DNA from: an uncultured Caulobacterales bacterium
GTDB taxonomy: Bacteria > Pseudomonadota > Alphaproteobacteria > Caulobacterales > Caulobacteraceae
Direction: 5' to 3'
Assembly: GCA_903858685.1 (NCBI GenBank)
Contig: CAIOJR010000166.1
Location: 1 to 64,000 of the forward strand
DNA length: 64,000 bases
The stretch's first letter is position 1; every line of letters begins with the position of its first letter. This document shows, piece by piece, positions 31,610-39,989 of the stretch. Below the pieces are notes generated by a model. That model made no database searches, had not been told where the DNA came from, and saw only the letters and a list, made by a program, of their open reading frames with translations. A program made the position numbers and the translations under genes.

Positions 31610-33148
31610 GTGACCTCGAACCTTCGCAATCTGATCAGGGCGAGCCTGCGTATCGCAGCCGGAGCGGCGATGTTGCTGGCGGTGGTGGCGGTGAATGGGC
31701 GCCCGGTCGTGTTCGCCGACACCAATATCTATTACTGGATGGGCCAGTTGGAGATGCGTCCGGTGCGCTACGCCCTGGCGCCCCTGATCGGCGGTCCGAC
31801 CTCGCAGGCCAGCGACCCGGACGCCGCTGACGAATCGCCAGCCGAGATGCAGATGCGCCGGACTGAAATGGCCGCTCGCTCGCCCTGGTTCGGGCTGTTG
31901 CTGTATGGCGTGGAGTCCTTGGGCGGGCTTTGGCTGCTGGCCGGACTTCAGGCCGCAGCGGCCAGCTTCGCCATCCACGCCCTGTGGCGGGCCGCAGCGC
32001 CCAAGGCGGGCGCGTGGACGTGGCTGGGCCTGATGGCGGGCCTGAGCGTGACCTCCACCCTGCCCTTCTTCGCCGGCTTCGCCATGCCCGATCTGTGGGC
32101 GGGCGCAGGGCTTTGCGCCCTGGCCGTGCTGGCCCTCTATCCGGATCGCCTGAGACCCGCGACCCGCGCCGGCCTGTTCCTGCTGGTCTTCGCCGCCATG
32201 GCCTTTCACAAGACCAATGGCGCCGTCGCGGCTGGCGCCCTGTGCGCCCTGGCGATCCTGAACCTGGCCATGCGCCGCCCCTTGAAACGCTTGGCCCTGG
32301 CGGCCCTGATGCTGCTGGGCGCCATGGTCGTGTCCGTGCTGCTCGACGCCGCCTATGCGGGAGCGATCCGCTCGGCGACCGGAGAAACATTGCGCGCCCC
32401 CCCCTTTCTGGCGGCGCGCCTTCTGGCCGACGGTCCGGGCCGGACCTATCTGAGAGCCGCTTGCGCCCGTGGAGAGCCATGGGAGCTGTGCCGCTATGCG
32501 CAGCGTCCCCTCGATGATTCTCAGGACATCCTGTGGTCCGGCGATCCGAAGAAGGGCGTGTTCGGGGTGGCGACCGCCGCCCAGCGCATCCGCATCGACG
32601 AGCAGCAGACCCGTTTCGTCCTCAGCGTCGTGCGCGCCTACCCCCTGCAGGCGGCTGAAGCGGCGCTGCGCAATGGCGTGACGGAGCTTGGACTGGTCTA
32701 TCTGGACGACCCGGTGCGAGATCCGCATTTCTACCTGACAGACCCGGACTGGCGCGACACCTTCATCGCCGACATGGTTCACCGAATGAGCGATTGCGGC
32801 GACCATGAGACCGGTTGCAAGCCGCGTTTCGACCGTGCGCAGTCCATGGTCTGGCACAGCGCCTTCTTCGCAATGGCCGCCCTGTTCAGTCTGATGCGTC
32901 TCTGCGCCCGCGATATCCGCACCGCGCTCGCCCGCCGCGACGAACAGACGACGCGGCTCGTGCTGCTGGCCGGGTTTATGATCTGTGCGACCGTGATCAA
33001 CGCCGCCGTGACCGGCGCACTGTCGGGCACATTTGCGCGGTATCAGGCCCGCATTTCGTGGCTCATCCCCATGCTGGCGCTCATCATGAGCGCGGTGTTT
33101 GGCGCGAGGCAGGCGAAAAGGTTTGGCCGCACGGGCGCAGACGTCTAA
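31610..33148 (+). CDS. polytopic membrane protein of unknown function (paralog A; GtrC-like candidate)
   Basis: GTG at 31610. Many TM helices. Shares an ordered set of motifs with the protein at 34985-36529. Confidence 0.75.
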   Translation: MTSNLRNLIRASLRIAAGAAMLLAVVAVNGRPVVFADTNIYYWMGQLEMRPVRYALAPLIGGPTSQASDPDAADESPAEMQMRRTEMAARSPWFGLLLYGVESLGGLWLLAGLQAAAASFAIHALWRAAAPKAGAWTWLGLMAGLSVTSTLPFFAGFAMPDLWAGAGLCALAVLALYPDRLRPATRAGLFLLVFAAMAFHKTNGAVAAGALCALAILNLAMRRPLKRLALAALMLLGAMVVSVLLDAAYAGAIRSATGETLRAPPFLAARLLADGPGRTYLRAACARGEPWELCRYAQRPLDDSQDILWSGDPKKGVFGVATAAQRIRIDEQQTRFVLSVVRAYPLQAAEAALRNGVTELGLVYLDDPVRDPHFYLTDPDWRDTFIADMVHRMSDCGDHETGCKPRFDRAQSMVWHSAFFAMAALFSLMRLCARDIRTALARRDEQTTRLVLLAGFMICATVINAAVTGALSGTFARYQARISWLIPMLALIMSAVFGARQAKRFGRTGADV

Positions 33149-33168
33149 GCAAGCCGTCCGCGCAAGGA

Positions 33169-33639
33169 ATGCCCATGTCGATTGAAGACCTTATGGAGCT
33201 GGTGATTTCTCACCTGCCCAAACCGCTGCAAAGACTGGCGCGCCTGATTGATCCCGCCTTTATCCGGTTCGGCTTTGTCGGCGGCACGGGATTTATCGTG
33301 GACTGGATCGGTCTCAGCCTTCTGGTCCGGTTTGCACACTGGACGCCCTATAACGCCCGCTACCTGTCCTTTACCGTGGCCGTCGCCGCCACCTGGCTGT
33401 TGAACCGGACATGGACCTTCAAGCGCGCAAGCTCCAAGCCGACCCTGAAAGAGGTCGGCAGCTATGTCGCGGTGCAGCTGACCGGCGGCGTGGCCAATAT
33501 CGGCGCCTATGCCCTGGCCCTGCATTTTGCGCCCGGGCTCAAGACCCTGCTGGTCGTGCCGCTCATCATCGGTTCCGCCATCGGCCTTTGCCTGACCTTC
33601 GCCGGATCGAAATATTGGGCCTTCAAGCGCGTCGCCTAG
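33169..33639 (+). CDS. GtrA family flippase-like protein
   Basis: FIRFGFVGGTGFIVDWIGLSLLV, YLSFTVAVAATWLLNRTWTFK and GSKYWAFKR. Confidence 0.9.
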   Translation: MPMSIEDLMELVISHLPKPLQRLARLIDPAFIRFGFVGGTGFIVDWIGLSLLVRFAHWTPYNARYLSFTVAVAATWLLNRTWTFKRASSKPTLKEVGSYVAVQLTGGVANIGAYALALHFAPGLKTLLVVPLIIGSAIGLCLTFAGSKYWAFKRVA

Positions 33640-33760
33640 TCCCAGACTTACAAATATTTCAGTTAGGCAATTCGCCGCTGACACCCATAACGAAATTGTG
33701 ATAGTGCGCTGCAACAGATTGCACCGCCCGCCATCCGCCCCTCATTCACGGATTTTCAAC

Positions 33761-34969
33761 ATGGCCGTTGTCGCCCTGAAGCCGCATGAAGTCACCAGCA
33801 CGCTGCACGTCATCGAGCCGACGAGCCTGGAACTCACCATCCTGATGCCCTGCCTGAACGAGGCGGAAACCATCGAGATCGTGGTGAACAAGGCCATGAC
33901 CTGGCTGAAGGCGTCCGGCCTGTCTGGCGAGGTGCTGATCGCCGACAATGGCAGCCGCGACGGCTCGCAGGCCATGGCCGAGGCGCTGGGCGCCCGCGTG
34001 GTGGCCGTGCCGGAAAAGGGTTATGGCGCAGCCCTGATGGGCGGCATCCGCGCCGCCCGCGGCAAGTATGTCATCATGGGCGATGCTGACGACAGCTACG
34101 ACTTCTCCAAGCTCGACGCCTTTGTGGAGCGCCTGCAGGACGGCGCCGATCTGGTCATGGGCAACCGCTTCAAGGGCGGGATCGAAAAAGGCGCCATGCC
34201 TCCGCTGCATTACTGGCTGGGCAATCCCGTCCTGTCCTTCCTCGGCCGCCTGCTCTATTCCATTCCTGTGGGCGACTTCCACTGCGGACTGCGCGGCTTC
34301 GACCGCGACGCCATCCTGGCCCTGGGCCTGAAGAGCCCGGGCATGGAGTTCGCCAGCGAAATGGTGGTGAAGGCTTCTCTGGCCAAGCTGCCCATGGCCG
34401 AAGTGCCCACCACGCTGAAGCCCGACGGCCGCAGCCGGGCGCCGCACCTGAAGACCTGGCGCGATGGCTGGCGCCACCTGAAGTTCCTGCTGCTGCACAG
34501 CCCGAAATGGATGTTCATCTATCCGGGTCTGGCCCTGATGGCGGCGGGTCTGTTCGGCTCCATCCTGCTGGCGCCCGGCGCCGTGGCGATCACGCCGACC
34601 GTCGAACTCGACATCCATTCGCTGGTCGTGGCCTGCTTCGCCGTGCTGATCGGCACGCAGCTTGTCATGTTCGGCGCCCTCGCCCGTCGCTACGCCATGC
34701 TCGAAGGCGTTCTGCCCAATCCGTCCAGCTTCAAGAAGATCCTGCTGGGCATGGAGCTGGAGCCGATCCTGCGCGTTGCGGGCGTCATCTTCGCCGCGGG
34801 CGCCATTGGCGCTGTCTGGGCAGTGTCGACCTGGGCCGCCAACGGCTTTGGCCCGATTGTCTACAACAACGTGATGCGCGGCCTCGTGATCTCGTTGACG
34901 GCGATCACCGTTGCAGTGCAGATCGGGGCTGCAGGCGTTCTGGCCTCCATGCTGAACATCCGTCGCTGA
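33761..34969 (+). CDS. family 2 glycosyltransferase, polyprenyl-phosphate (GtrB/DPM1-like)
   Basis: LTILMPCLNEAETIE, GYGAALMGGIRAARGKYVIMGDADDSYDF, two to four C-terminal TM segments. Confidence 0.9.
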   Translation: MAVVALKPHEVTSTLHVIEPTSLELTILMPCLNEAETIEIVVNKAMTWLKASGLSGEVLIADNGSRDGSQAMAEALGARVVAVPEKGYGAALMGGIRAARGKYVIMGDADDSYDFSKLDAFVERLQDGADLVMGNRFKGGIEKGAMPPLHYWLGNPVLSFLGRLLYSIPVGDFHCGLRGFDRDAILALGLKSPGMEFASEMVVKASLAKLPMAEVPTTLKPDGRSRAPHLKTWRDGWRHLKFLLLHSPKWMFIYPGLALMAAGLFGSILLAPGAVAITPTVELDIHSLVVACFAVLIGTQLVMFGALARRYAMLEGVLPNPSSFKKILLGMELEPILRVAGVIFAAGAIGAVWAVSTWAANGFGPIVYNNVMRGLVISLTAITVAVQIGAAGVLASMLNIRR

Positions 34970-34984
34970 CGAGGTCATCCATTC

Positions 34985-36529
34985 ATGCACAGGCTTCTGA
35001 GGCGATCTTGGGTACAGGTCGTAATTGGAACCCTGTTGCTGATGGCGGTCATTCTGGTGAACGGCCGCCCTTCGGTCTTCACCGATACTGACGACTATTA
35101 CGCACAGGGGCGCGGCGCCGCTCACGCGGTCAAGCCGCTGGTTCAGCCGCTCGTCCACGCCCTCTTTCATCCCAAGAGCGCGCCGGACGACGACCGGACC
35201 TATCTGCAGGCGGAGGCCGACGAGGACCACACCTCCATGGCCGCCCGCTCGCCCTATTACGGCGTGTTCCTCTATGCGAGCTACAAGGCGGGCAGCCTGT
35301 GGATGCTGGCCCTGATCCAGTCGGCGATCGCCGCCTGGACCGTCTACACCGTCATTCTGGGCGTTGTCCGAGACCTGAAGGTCTGGACCTATCCGGCCAT
35401 CATGCTGGGGCTGAGCCTCTTGTCCACGCTGCCCTTCTTCACCGGCTTCGCCATGCCTGACGTGTTCGCCTCATTGGGCGCGCTGGCGACCATCGGACTG
35501 GCGGTCGGCTGGACGCGCTATGGCTGGCTTCAGCGCGTCGGTCTGTTCGGCGTGATCACCATGTCCTTGTGGTTCCACACGTCGCATGTCCTGCTCGAAC
35601 TGATCCTGGTCGTGTCGCTCTGCGCCGTGCTCTGGTGGTTCCATGCGGACACCAAGCGCATGGCCTTGACGGCCGGCGTCCTGATCGCCGTTGTAGCGTC
35701 CGCCTTCGCCTCGGACCGCGCCTATCATGACCTGGTGAAGTTCCGCACAGGCGAGGACCTGCACCGACCGCCATTCCTGATGGCGCGCGTTCTGGCGGAC
35801 GGACCGGGCAGGCTCTATCTGCGCGACGCCTGCGCCAAGGCCACGCCCTATGTTCTGTGCCGCTACAAGCGCAACCCGCTGGACAATTCCGACGAGATCC
35901 TGTGGGCCGACGACCCGGCGCGCGGAATATTCAACGCCTCCAAGATCCCTGTGCGCATCGCATTGGAACGTGAGGAAAAGGCGTTCGTCATCGGGACCTT
36001 GACCCATTATCCGGTGTCGCAGCTCGCAGCCTCCCTGTCGAACTGGTGGGAACAGCTCAGCCTGATCGACCTGGCCGAGCCCCTGCGCGATCCGACCTAT
36101 TATTTCGCCAATATCTATTGGAAGGACACCAGCCTGCCGGGCCTGATCCCGGGAGGACTGAAATGTGTGAAAACGCCGAAACTGTGCCGCCCCAACCTGA
36201 ACATGGATGCGCTGGAATGGGTGCACGGCCTGACCATTCTGGCGTCCAGCCTCTTCCTTTTGTGGCGCTTTACGCGCCGCGACCTGATCGAGGCGCTGGC
36301 CGGACGCGAAGCGCTCAGCGTCGGTTCACGGCAATCCATCGTGGCCATGGCGGCGCTGGTGGTGGTGGCGGTGATCATGAATGCGGGCGTGACCGGCATA
36401 TTGTCCGGCCCCTTCTCCCGCTATCACGCACGTATGGTCTGGCTGATCCCGGCATTGGCGTTTACGGTTCTGGCGAGTCACGGGCTGGGCTTCAACATCT
36501 TCAAAAAGACGGACGATCCGACGCCATAG
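34985..36529 (+). CDS. polytopic membrane protein of unknown function (paralog B; GtrC-like candidate)
   Basis: Begins 15 nt after the GT2 gene. Shares NGRPxVFxDTxxYY, MAARSP, STLPFFxGFAMPD, RPPFLxARxLADGPGRxYLR and LSGxFxRYxARxxWLIPxLA with 31610-33148. Confidence 0.75.
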   Translation: MHRLLRRSWVQVVIGTLLLMAVILVNGRPSVFTDTDDYYAQGRGAAHAVKPLVQPLVHALFHPKSAPDDDRTYLQAEADEDHTSMAARSPYYGVFLYASYKAGSLWMLALIQSAIAAWTVYTVILGVVRDLKVWTYPAIMLGLSLLSTLPFFTGFAMPDVFASLGALATIGLAVGWTRYGWLQRVGLFGVITMSLWFHTSHVLLELILVVSLCAVLWWFHADTKRMALTAGVLIAVVASAFASDRAYHDLVKFRTGEDLHRPPFLMARVLADGPGRLYLRDACAKATPYVLCRYKRNPLDNSDEILWADDPARGIFNASKIPVRIALEREEKAFVIGTLTHYPVSQLAASLSNWWEQLSLIDLAEPLRDPTYYFANIYWKDTSLPGLIPGGLKCVKTPKLCRPNLNMDALEWVHGLTILASSLFLLWRFTRRDLIEALAGREALSVGSRQSIVAMAALVVVAVIMNAGVTGILSGPFSRYHARMVWLIPALAFTVLASHGLGFNIFKKTDDPTP

Positions 36530-36605: not shown

Positions 36606-39600
36606 ATGCCAGGATACGTGTTTCACGACCCAAGCGGCCGCCGGGCCCGTAATGTCCGCCTGCTCAGCGGGGTTGCGGTGGCGTTGGTCTTCGCCATTTT
36701 CGCCGCCTTCGCCGCCAGTCTGGCCTTTGCGCCCCATGTGCCCGAAGTGCGCTTTCGCGACCCGCACACGCTCAAGGCGCTGAACGTCAAGATCCCGCAC
36801 GGCCCCACGCCCTGGACCCGCCTGCCCCGCCCGCCCAAATCGCGCGGCTCAGGCCAGCGCCCCCTGTCGGTCGGCTTCTATGTCAGCTGGGACGAGCAGT
36901 CGGCCCAGGCCCTGCACGACCACATGGCAGAGCTGGACGTGATCGCGCCGCAATGGATTCTGGTCGATACGCCAGACGGGCAGGTCAATGTCACCGCCGA
37001 CCCGCGCGCCGACGACATGCTGCGGCGCGCCAAGAAGCGCCCCGCCGTCATGCCCGTGGTTCACAACGCCAGCGATGGAACCTGGAACTCAAAGCCCATT
37101 GAGCAGCTGTTGCGCAATCCCAAGGCGCGCGCCGCCCTGATCCACAACCTGATCACTCTGGCTGAGCAGCGCGGCTATTCGGGCTATGTGTTCGACTTCG
37201 AGAACCTGTCGCCCGAGGCGCTGGCCCTCTACCCGGCCTTTATCTCCGACGTGAATACCGCCTTTAACCCCAGCGGTCGTGAAATCTGGGTGACCGTGCC
37301 CGTGGACGATACGGACTGGCCGCTCAAGGCGCTGCAAAACGCCTCCGACGCCATCATGCCCATGATGTATGACGAGCACTGGCAATCCGCCACGCCGGGG
37401 CCGGCCGCCTCCCAGGCCTGGTTCCAGGCCAAGCTGTCGGAATATCTGCGCGGCCTTGATCCCAACAAGATCATCCTGGCCCTGGGCTCATACGGATATG
37501 ACTGGACCAGGGGCGCAAATCTGGCCCAGGCCATCACCTTCCACGAGGCGATGCAGGCGGCCCATGACGCCTCGGTGCCGGTCACCTTCGACCGCACCGC
37601 GCTCAATCCCATGTTCCGTTACGCCGATGACAAGGGCAAGGCTCACGAGGTCTGGTTCCTCGACGCCGCCACCATGTACAACCAGATCCATGTCGCCGAC
37701 GCCTGGCGTCTGCGCGGATACGCGGTCTGGCGCATGGGCTCCGAGGATCCCGGCGTCTGGTCCCTGCTGGGTCGCAGCTACGACACGGCCAACATCAACA
37801 ACCTGCCCGAAATGCCCGCAAGTCAGGACATTGACTTCAATGGCTTCGGAGAGGTGATGAATGTGTCCGAAAAACCGGCGCCGGGGCGTCGTCGACTGAC
37901 GCTGGACAAGCCGACCGGCCTGGTCACCAACGAGATTGTCGATATCTATCCCTCCGCCTGGGTGGTGCAGCGTCTGGGGCAGAGCCCCGGCAAGGTCGCC
38001 CTGACATTTGACGACGGACCGGACCCGCGCTGGACCTCGAAAATTCTCGACATTCTGAAGGAGAAGCAGGTCAAGGCCACCTTCTTCGTCATCGGGCGAA
38101 ACATGGAGGACTATCCCGAACTGGTCGCGCGCGAGGTGAGCGAGGGCCACATTGTCGGTAGCCACAGCTTCACCCATCCCAATATAGCCGAAGAGCCGCC
38201 CAGCGCCGTACCGCTGGAGTTCAATCTGACGCAGCGACTGTTTCAGGTCGTCACGGGCAAGACCCTGCGCTTTTTCCGCCCGCCCTATCTGGGCGACGCC
38301 TCGCCCTCGACGGCGGCGGAACTGGCGCCGCTGCTGATCGCTGAAAAGCTCGGCTATGTGACGGTGGGCCTGAGGATCGACCCGGACGACTGGAACCGGC
38401 CCGACGCCGATCTGATCGTCAGCCGCACCCTGGCGCGACTTCAGGACGACAATCCGGAGACGGGTGGACAGGTAGTTCTGCTGCACGATTCCGGCGGCAA
38501 TCGCAGCCGCACCATCGCCGCCCTGCCCAAGCTGATCGACGCGCTGCGCGCTCATGGCTATCAGATCGTCACGGTCGCGGACCTGATCGGCATGCCTGCG
38601 GCCCAGGCCATGCCGCCCGCCACCCGCGACCCCTTCCAGTTGACGCTTGATCGCACCGTGTTCAGCACCGTGCGCGGCTTTGACAAGTTCATCGCGGCGC
38701 TGTTCCTTTCAGCCATTCTGATCGGCCTTGCGCGCCTGATCTTCCTGGCCGTGCTGGCGCTCTATCACCGCGCTGTCATCGACCGGCGCACGCCGGAGGA
38801 GATCCCGCCCGGGACGGGTCCCTTCGTCACCGTGCTGATCCCCTGTTATAATGAAGAGGCGGTGATCGTCTCCTCGATCCGCCAGGTTCTGGACTCCCAC
38901 TGGACCAACATGGAAGTCCTCGTCATAGACGACGGCTCCAAGGACAACACCTCAGCCGAGGTTCAGAAGGCCTATAGCGATCATCCCATGGTGCGGTTGC
39001 TGCGGTTCGAGAACGGCGGCAAGGCCATGGCGCTCAATCGCGGTCTGGCCCTGGCCAAGGGCGATATTGTCGTGGCGCTCGACGCTGACACCCTGTTCGC
39101 CAAGTCGACGATCGGACGGCTGGCCCGCTGGTTCCGCGACCCGCGCGTGGGGGCCGTGGCGGGCAACGCCCTGGTCGGCAATCAGGTCAACACGGTCACG
39201 CGCTGGCAGGCGCTGGAATATGTCTCCGCCCAGAATCTGGAGCGTCGCGCCCTGGCGGCGCTGGGGACGGTGACCGTTGTGCCCGGCGCGGTCGGCGCCT
39301 GGCGGCGTCAGACCCTGGAAGCCCTTGGCGGCTTTCCCCATGACACGCTGGCGGAGGATCAGGACCTGACGCTCGCCGCCCAGTCGGCCGGCTGGGTGGT
39401 CGAGTTCGACCCCGAGGCTGTGGCCTTTACCGAGGCGCCCGAAACGGTGGCGGGACTTCTGAAACAGCGCTTCCGCTGGTCGTTCGGCACGCTGCAATGC
39501 GTATGGAAACACCGCAAGGACCTGTTCAATCCCAGGCGCCCCGCTCTGGGCTTTCTGGCCCTGCCGCAGATCTGGCTGTTCCAGATCTTCCTGACCACCG

Positions 39601-39989
39601 CGGCGCCTCTGGTCGATCTGGCGGCCATATTCAGTCTGATTTCTGCGGGCTTTGACCGCCTGTCGCATCCGGGCGAGTGGAACAGCGAGGGTCTGACCCG
39701 CGCGCTGCTCTACTGGGCGGCCTTTGTGCTGGTCGATCTGGCGGCGGCCTCCATCGGCATGGCGCTGGAGCGCCGCGCGCCCTGGAGCAGCCTGGCCTGG
39801 CTTCCGGCGCAACGATTCGGCTATCGGCAACTGATGTATTATGTGGTGGTCAAGGCCGTGGTCAGCGCGATCCATGGGCGCCGGGTCGAGTGGGGCTCGC
39901 TCCAGCGCACCGCCAGCGCCGTGGTGGACACCCGCGGCGACAGCGCCGGCGCCGACAAGGCGCAAGCCAAACCGGGCGCCCCTGCGTAA
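36606..39989 (+). CDS. tri-domain GH18-like / polysaccharide deacetylase (CE4) / processive GT2 fusion
   Basis: GH18-like region with GYVFDFENL; CE4 motifs VALTFDDGPDP and SHSFTHP; GT2 motifs VTVLIPCYNEE, ALDADT, EDQDL and QRFRW. Confidence 0.88.
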   Translation: MPGYVFHDPSGRRARNVRLLSGVAVALVFAIFAAFAASLAFAPHVPEVRFRDPHTLKALNVKIPHGPTPWTRLPRPPKSRGSGQRPLSVGFYVSWDEQSAQALHDHMAELDVIAPQWILVDTPDGQVNVTADPRADDMLRRAKKRPAVMPVVHNASDGTWNSKPIEQLLRNPKARAALIHNLITLAEQRGYSGYVFDFENLSPEALALYPAFISDVNTAFNPSGREIWVTVPVDDTDWPLKALQNASDAIMPMMYDEHWQSATPGPAASQAWFQAKLSEYLRGLDPNKIILALGSYGYDWTRGANLAQAITFHEAMQAAHDASVPVTFDRTALNPMFRYADDKGKAHEVWFLDAATMYNQIHVADAWRLRGYAVWRMGSEDPGVWSLLGRSYDTANINNLPEMPASQDIDFNGFGEVMNVSEKPAPGRRRLTLDKPTGLVTNEIVDIYPSAWVVQRLGQSPGKVALTFDDGPDPRWTSKILDILKEKQVKATFFVIGRNMEDYPELVAREVSEGHIVGSHSFTHPNIAEEPPSAVPLEFNLTQRLFQVVTGKTLRFFRPPYLGDASPSTAAELAPLLIAEKLGYVTVGLRIDPDDWNRPDADLIVSRTLARLQDDNPETGGQVVLLHDSGGNRSRTIAALPKLIDALRAHGYQIVTVADLIGMPAAQAMPPATRDPFQLTLDRTVFSTVRGFDKFIAALFLSAILIGLARLIFLAVLALYHRAVIDRRTPEEIPPGTGPFVTVLIPCYNEEAVIVSSIRQVLDSHWTNMEVLVIDDGSKDNTSAEVQKAYSDHPMVRLLRFENGGKAMALNRGLALAKGDIVVALDADTLFAKSTIGRLARWFRDPRVGAVAGNALVGNQVNTVTRWQALEYVSAQNLERRALAALGTVTVVPGAVGAWRRQTLEALGGFPHDTLAEDQDLTLAAQSAGWVVEFDPEAVAFTEAPETVAGLLKQRFRWSFGTLQCVWKHRKDLFNPRRPALGFLALPQIWLFQIFLTTAAPLVDLAAIFSLISAGFDRLSHPGEWNSEGLTRALLYWAAFVLVDLAAASIGMALERRAPWSSLAWLPAQRFGYRQLMYYVVVKAVVSAIHGRRVEWGSLQRTASAVVDTRGDSAGADKAQAKPGAPA

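Follow-up and report, generated by a model that had tools for sequence, protein, structure and literature searches.

Four co-directional genes at positions 31610-36529 of the window (the whole 64,000-nucleotide stretch of DNA from an uncultured Caulobacterales bacterium that was analysed) very probably encode a Gtr-type transmembrane glycosylation module, in which two polytopic paralogs, A and B, are the GT-C transferases. In the proposed mechanism, the GT2 encoded between them would, at the cytoplasmic face, charge polyprenyl phosphate with a sugar, GtrA would aid the sugar-lipid in crossing the membrane, and A and B, with their predicted GT-C fold, would take the lipid-borne sugar on the periplasmic side and transfer it to acceptors. 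Their family is most likely responsible for the last step of Gtr-type glycosylation, the donor being a lipid-phosphate-hexose here and a lipid-phosphate-pentofuranose elsewhere. The fold, topology, invariant residues, operon, fusions and conservation of the pair were computed; catalysis, the roles of residues, the sugar and the acceptors are what we infer.

The operon and its conservation in the genus

The four genes lie on the forward strand as a compact operon with intergenic gaps of 20, 121 and 15 bases. Paralog A (31610..33148, 512 aa, GTG start), whose putative catalytic aspartate is encoded at nt 31718-31720, is followed by a GtrA family protein, a putative polyprenyl-phosphate-sugar flippase (33169..33639; PF04138, E 3.3e-21), by a GT2 polyprenyl-phosphate glycosyltransferase of the GtrB/DPMS/AglJ-like kind (33761..34969, 403 aa; PF00535, E 3.3e-25), and by paralog B (34985..36529, 514 aa, ATG start), in which D34 corresponds to nt 35084-35086 and D159 to nt 35459-35461. 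The best NCBIfam model for the GT2 is AglJ (TIGR04182, E 1.3e-37, under the model cut-off), and its PDB matches are DPMS (5mlz, 2.8e-11), ArnC (2.8e-7) and the GtrB sll0501 (5eke, 5.7e-5). The initial annotation had described this arrangement, with paralogous reading frames around a GtrA-type protein and a polyprenyl-phosphate GT2, and it holds: the PF04138 and PF00535 matches identify the two inner genes, and the seven motifs listed for the outer ones occur once each and in the same order in both proteins. Aligned end to end in a single comparison, A and B share 184 identities over 500 positions (37%; 305 bits, E 2e-102), and they are the whole set, since the genome holds no third copy of the polytopic protein.

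In the Gtr systems that modify O-antigen (GtrA-GtrB-GtrC; PMC11127046, PMC3688519), one operon likewise encodes GtrA, a GT2 that makes the donor and a polytopic enzyme for the last step. The window operon differs in that its last enzyme has no match among Pfam or NCBIfam families and is duplicated, and in that relatives carry it fused to GtrA. Related genomes of the genus (L003, L004, L006 and L007; the contig of L005 begins inside the GT2) retain the order A-GtrA-GT2-B, so the pair is not an accident of assembly; a duplication of that kind is rejected by the recurrence of pair and gene order in other genomes and by the deep divergence of A from B.

Immediately downstream, also on the forward strand, lies a gene (36606..39989) for a protein of 1127 aa that combines GH18, polysaccharide deacetylase and PgaC/IcaA-like GT2 domains (PF00704, PF01522, PF13641) and matches the PgaC model at E 1.9e-58, under its cut-off. 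Within the genus (L003, L004, L005, L007) the gene remains syntenic with the Gtr-like operon, and therefore the polymer made by its product could be an acceptor; the gene is not found beside the GtrA-fused loci of other Caulobacteraceae. The protein could thus be the synthase of an acceptor polymer, without being a proven part of the module.

A new family with a predicted GT-C fold

Homologs were drawn from GTDB species genomes, at the level of the order and the class, and from plasmids. A single-sequence search of the order found the family in 12 of 298 genomes and a profile search of the class in 29 of 386, and three plasmid records carry a member; a profile search across the phylum gave matches in 17 of 399 genomes, all in the same class. 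The phage records searched hold no member, and a viral structure library gave no convincing match. One family gene (L113, G610:C49) is split into several frames and is probably a pseudogene.

Neither paralog has a match above cut-off in Pfam or NCBIfam, and 35 diverse homologs compared with Pfam yielded only fused GtrA domains and stray weak matches, leaving the family itself uncovered. The PMT_2 model (PF13231) in particular has no above-cut-off match in P0001, P0002 or the 35 homologs, and PDB sequence searches with P0002 and with the family profile found no relative. Relative to Pfam, NCBIfam and the PDB sequences, the libraries against which it was compared, the family is new as judged by sequence, as the initial annotation had proposed in calling it undescribed. 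Across the 35 sequences D34, D159, H198, G273, C283, C292, R479, R483 and W486 (P0002 numbering) are invariant, and Y38, R88, W307, N466 and Y480 nearly so.

The AlphaFold model of paralog B, built with 24 sequences as input, reached a pLDDT of 87.8 and a pTM of 0.89. Foldseek against the PDB matched it to AglB (probability 1.00), DPY19 (0.99), ArnT (0.96) and PglB (0.91), with ALG3, OST/PglB and AftA also in the list; the best fold outside GT-C was a membrane pyrophosphatase at 0.13. The E-values of the GT-C matches (0.03-0.3) and their TM-scores (0.25-0.41) are modest, values that a remote branch would be expected to give. A model of a GtrA-fused homolog gave ArnT as its best PDB match (probability 1.00, E 4e-3) and Pmt4 at 0.97. 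It also matched DPMS, which has a GtrA Pfam domain, over a partial stretch of 145-146 columns; this match of the GtrA half aside, the best other fold had a probability of 0.20. GT-C enzymes are therefore the top PDB matches of two AlphaFold models (E 0.004-0.3).

Hydropathy and the model helices, assigned manually, give ten membrane helices with both termini inside, and lysine and arginine are richer in the assigned cytoplasmic loops in 24 of 24 and 34 of 35 rows, the positive-inside check. In this inferred topology all the invariant polar residues (D34, D159, H198, C283, C292, R479 and R483) lie at the periplasmic face. The first extracytoplasmic loop of GT-C enzymes holds a conserved acidic residue; D34, present in 35 of 35 sequences, directly follows helix 1 and is predicted to face the periplasm, which together with the GT-C matches is the outcome that the structure-prediction check sought. 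The catalytic base would probably be D34; D159, H198 and R479/Y480/R483 may line the donor site. The aspartates of the motif NGRPxVFxDT had been put forward earlier as candidate catalytic residues; one of them, D34, is indeed invariant, but it is the only one there, and the invariant D159 (of GFAMPD) and H198 are additional to those candidates. The invariant pair of cysteines in the large loop suits, in the model, an oxidising periplasm.

The family thus resembles ArnT and the PMT_2 enzymes (PF13231) in having a GT-C fold and a catalytic-type aspartate after helix 1. Unlike them it has no Pfam match, and its second periplasmic loop is longer and carries the invariant cysteine pair. A profile comparison with PMT_2 GT-C enzymes of the same genomes pairs D34 with an invariant aspartate and H198 with an invariant lysine; the alignment is weakly significant, with E 0.003 against 0.45 for amino-acid permeases and 0.88 for Wzx-type proteins as controls, and its hhalign probability is just 10.6%.

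GtrA fusions and donor pathways in relatives

We regard the fusions of GtrA at both ends of the family domain, and a run of genes on a Paracoccus plasmid, as the strongest evidence for a Gtr-type role. Caulobacteraceae orthologs carry a GtrA domain at the C-terminus of the polytopic domain (PF04138 E 8e-22, 7e-22 and 1e-16), which is about 45% identical (67/150) to the GtrA of the window, while in a distant lineage (L099 in genome G526) GtrA is fused N-terminally (E 1.5e-18). Just upstream of both kinds of fusion lies a GT2 of the same subfamily. Separate genes occur as FAM-GT2-GtrA in L095 and as GT2-FAM-GtrA in L048, where FAM is the family member, and L023 has a GtrA neighbour. In L008 the GT2 and the GtrA-fused gene have genes for BacA/UppP and an alkaline phosphatase (both Pfam assignments) upstream of them, with genes of the same size in L010 and L014; these neighbours are a hint of a link to undecaprenyl-phosphate recycling.

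Genomes that bear the family hold between none and five GtrA genes, the window genome having four, and we estimate from these counts that chance would place one within 3 kb in well under 1% of cases. Four or more distinct regions of the tree have GtrA within that distance of a family gene. It is absent within 3 kb in 43 of 65 tree rows (L005 and L042 being among them solely because of a contig or record end), so the Gtr link marks several branches and not the entire family. A survey of co-occurrence with GtrA and GtrB, proposed with the initial annotation, therefore bears out the association for several branches and in the fusions, but not for the family at large; the observation named there as refuting, homologs commonly without such neighbours, applies in part. 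In G655 and G301, GtrA adjoins a PMT_2 GT-C and not a family member. Loci L050, L052 and L056 have a GT2 near the family gene and no GtrA nearby; an amine-oxidase/GLF-like flavoprotein lies near the family gene in L050 and L052, and L050 also has an LPG_synthase_TM protein, so that an alternative flippase or a sugar-modifying step is possible in these three.

The majority of the distant alphaproteobacterial homologs have neither a GtrA nor a GT2 neighbour. That they lack GtrA, and that Wzx- and Wzy-type genes share a cluster with the homologs L047, L049 and L053, would agree with polytopic proteins that are Wzy/WaaL-like polymerases or ligases, or transporters, working on the same lipid carrier. 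We consider this very improbable, as the top structural matches are GT-C enzymes, with no other fold above 0.13 for paralog B, and the family member of L047 adjoins a separate Wzy_C protein. A transporter or Wzy fold was rejected by the structure search. The GT-C transferases postulated at the outset agree with the fold comparison, the topology and invariant residues, the GtrA fusions in opposite orders and the recurrent GtrA, GT2 and UbiA neighbours.

A second kind of donor pathway appears in the Paracoccus plasmid and Rhodobacter loci. On plasmid p9146 of Paracoccus aestuarii (L042, NZ_CP067174.1, 9146 bp) the family member, UbiA, HAD and GtrA follow one another across the start of the record with overlapping ends, apparently a complete lipid-pentofuranose transfer cassette as far as its genes indicate. 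In Rhodobacter (L044:7636-10293) a single ORF of 885 aa comprises HAD, an incomplete UbiA-like segment and the family domain, with a complete UbiA and a GtrA downstream. The stand-alone UbiA proteins match decaprenyl-phosphate phosphoribosyltransferase models best, under their cut-offs. In the three-component GT136 system the pentofuranose donor is supplied by a UbiA-type PPPRS and a HAD phosphatase, flipped by a MATE flippase and used by ORF12 of C. youngae (Kelly et al. 2024, PMC11127046). The family members of L042 and L044 likewise have a HAD phosphatase and a phosphoribosyltransferase of the UbiA type as neighbours, and D34/Y38/R479/Y480 of the family recall D31/Y35/R349/Y350 of ORF12, a D-x3-Y and an RY pair compared by the residue numbers of that paper. 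The GT136 system has a MATE flippase where the family loci have GtrA, and its C-terminal CBM is absent from the family. By analogy, these gene sets would follow the pentofuranose pathway logic of PMC11127046 with GtrA replacing the flippase. This donor route is absent from the window operon, which has a GT2, and was found only in the distant L042 and L044.

A proposed division of labour between the paralogs

Each paralog has a supported clade of its own, A with an SH-aLRT of 100. In a quick tree B clusters with the GtrA-fused Caulobacteraceae homologs and those of Sphingomonadaceae, with A outside (SH-aLRT 94); the duplication therefore appears to predate the genus. The two clades are separated by 37 fixed differences; the remaining close relatives side with B at 15 of them and with A at three. 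A lacks D36, D37 and H201, which adjoin putative active-site residues and are retained by B and the other close relatives, and it keeps every family-invariant residue, including the equivalents of D34, D159, H198, R479 and R483.

Most likely the paralogs act with the same sugar on two acceptors or at two positions: the single GT2 donor synthase and single GtrA that serve both A and B favour a difference in acceptor over one in sugar. Of the two kinds of divergence named in the initial annotation, that in acceptor is accordingly the one we prefer, and that in sugar is disfavoured. It is unlikely, in our judgement, that A and B are GT-C transferases using different lipid-linked sugars, one of them made by a donor synthase encoded in trans. 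The fixed differences beside the putative catalytic aspartate (D36, D37) and H198 (H201) fall where the donor-sugar site is expected, the genome contains one or more further GT2/GT-C clusters and a total of four GtrA genes, and the family seems to take varied donors, to judge from its GT2-linked and UbiA/HAD-linked loci; but the operon has one donor synthase, and its order is conserved in the genus. The other cluster of this genome (L151, G000:C87, 3159-10971) is itself Gtr-like, with GtrA, a GT2-like protein and a PMT_2-like GT-C whose Pfam match is under threshold; a further GtrA lies beside a gene named by eye as FAD-dependent oxidoreductase-like. Less probable still is that A has altered or lost catalysis and serves B as a partner subunit, in a heterodimer like Pmt1-Pmt2: its divergence at D36, D37 and H201 would suit such a role, but A keeps all the family-invariant residues and its clade is conserved. 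Two transferases served by one GtrA recall the Gram-positive multi-component systems such as CsdAB/CD/EF with one CflA, where a single GtrA-type flippase likewise serves several GT-C enzymes; in those systems every GT-C is paired with a GT-A of its own (PMC8035078), whereas the two paralogous GT-Cs of the window share one GT2.

GtrA proteins are presumed flippases for which direct evidence of flipping is lacking (PMC11127046). The two GtrA fusions of opposite order argue for a direct hand-over of the lipid-sugar from GtrA to the transferase, and as naturally occurring single polypeptides they would allow flipping and transfer to be examined jointly. We tentatively propose, as a picture that is possible though far from secure, a new GT-C family across the Alphaproteobacteria whose donors have been switched between polyprenyl-phosphate-hexose (GT2) and polyprenyl-phosphate-pentofuranose (UbiA and HAD), to which GtrA hands the lipid-sugar directly, and which in the genus of the window has one supply line and two diverged transferases. 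The family would supply the GT-C component in two types of donor pathway. It could account for hypothetical proteins of numerous genomes in the Alphaproteobacteria, and one of the instances is an apparently complete cassette of four genes on a 9-kb plasmid.
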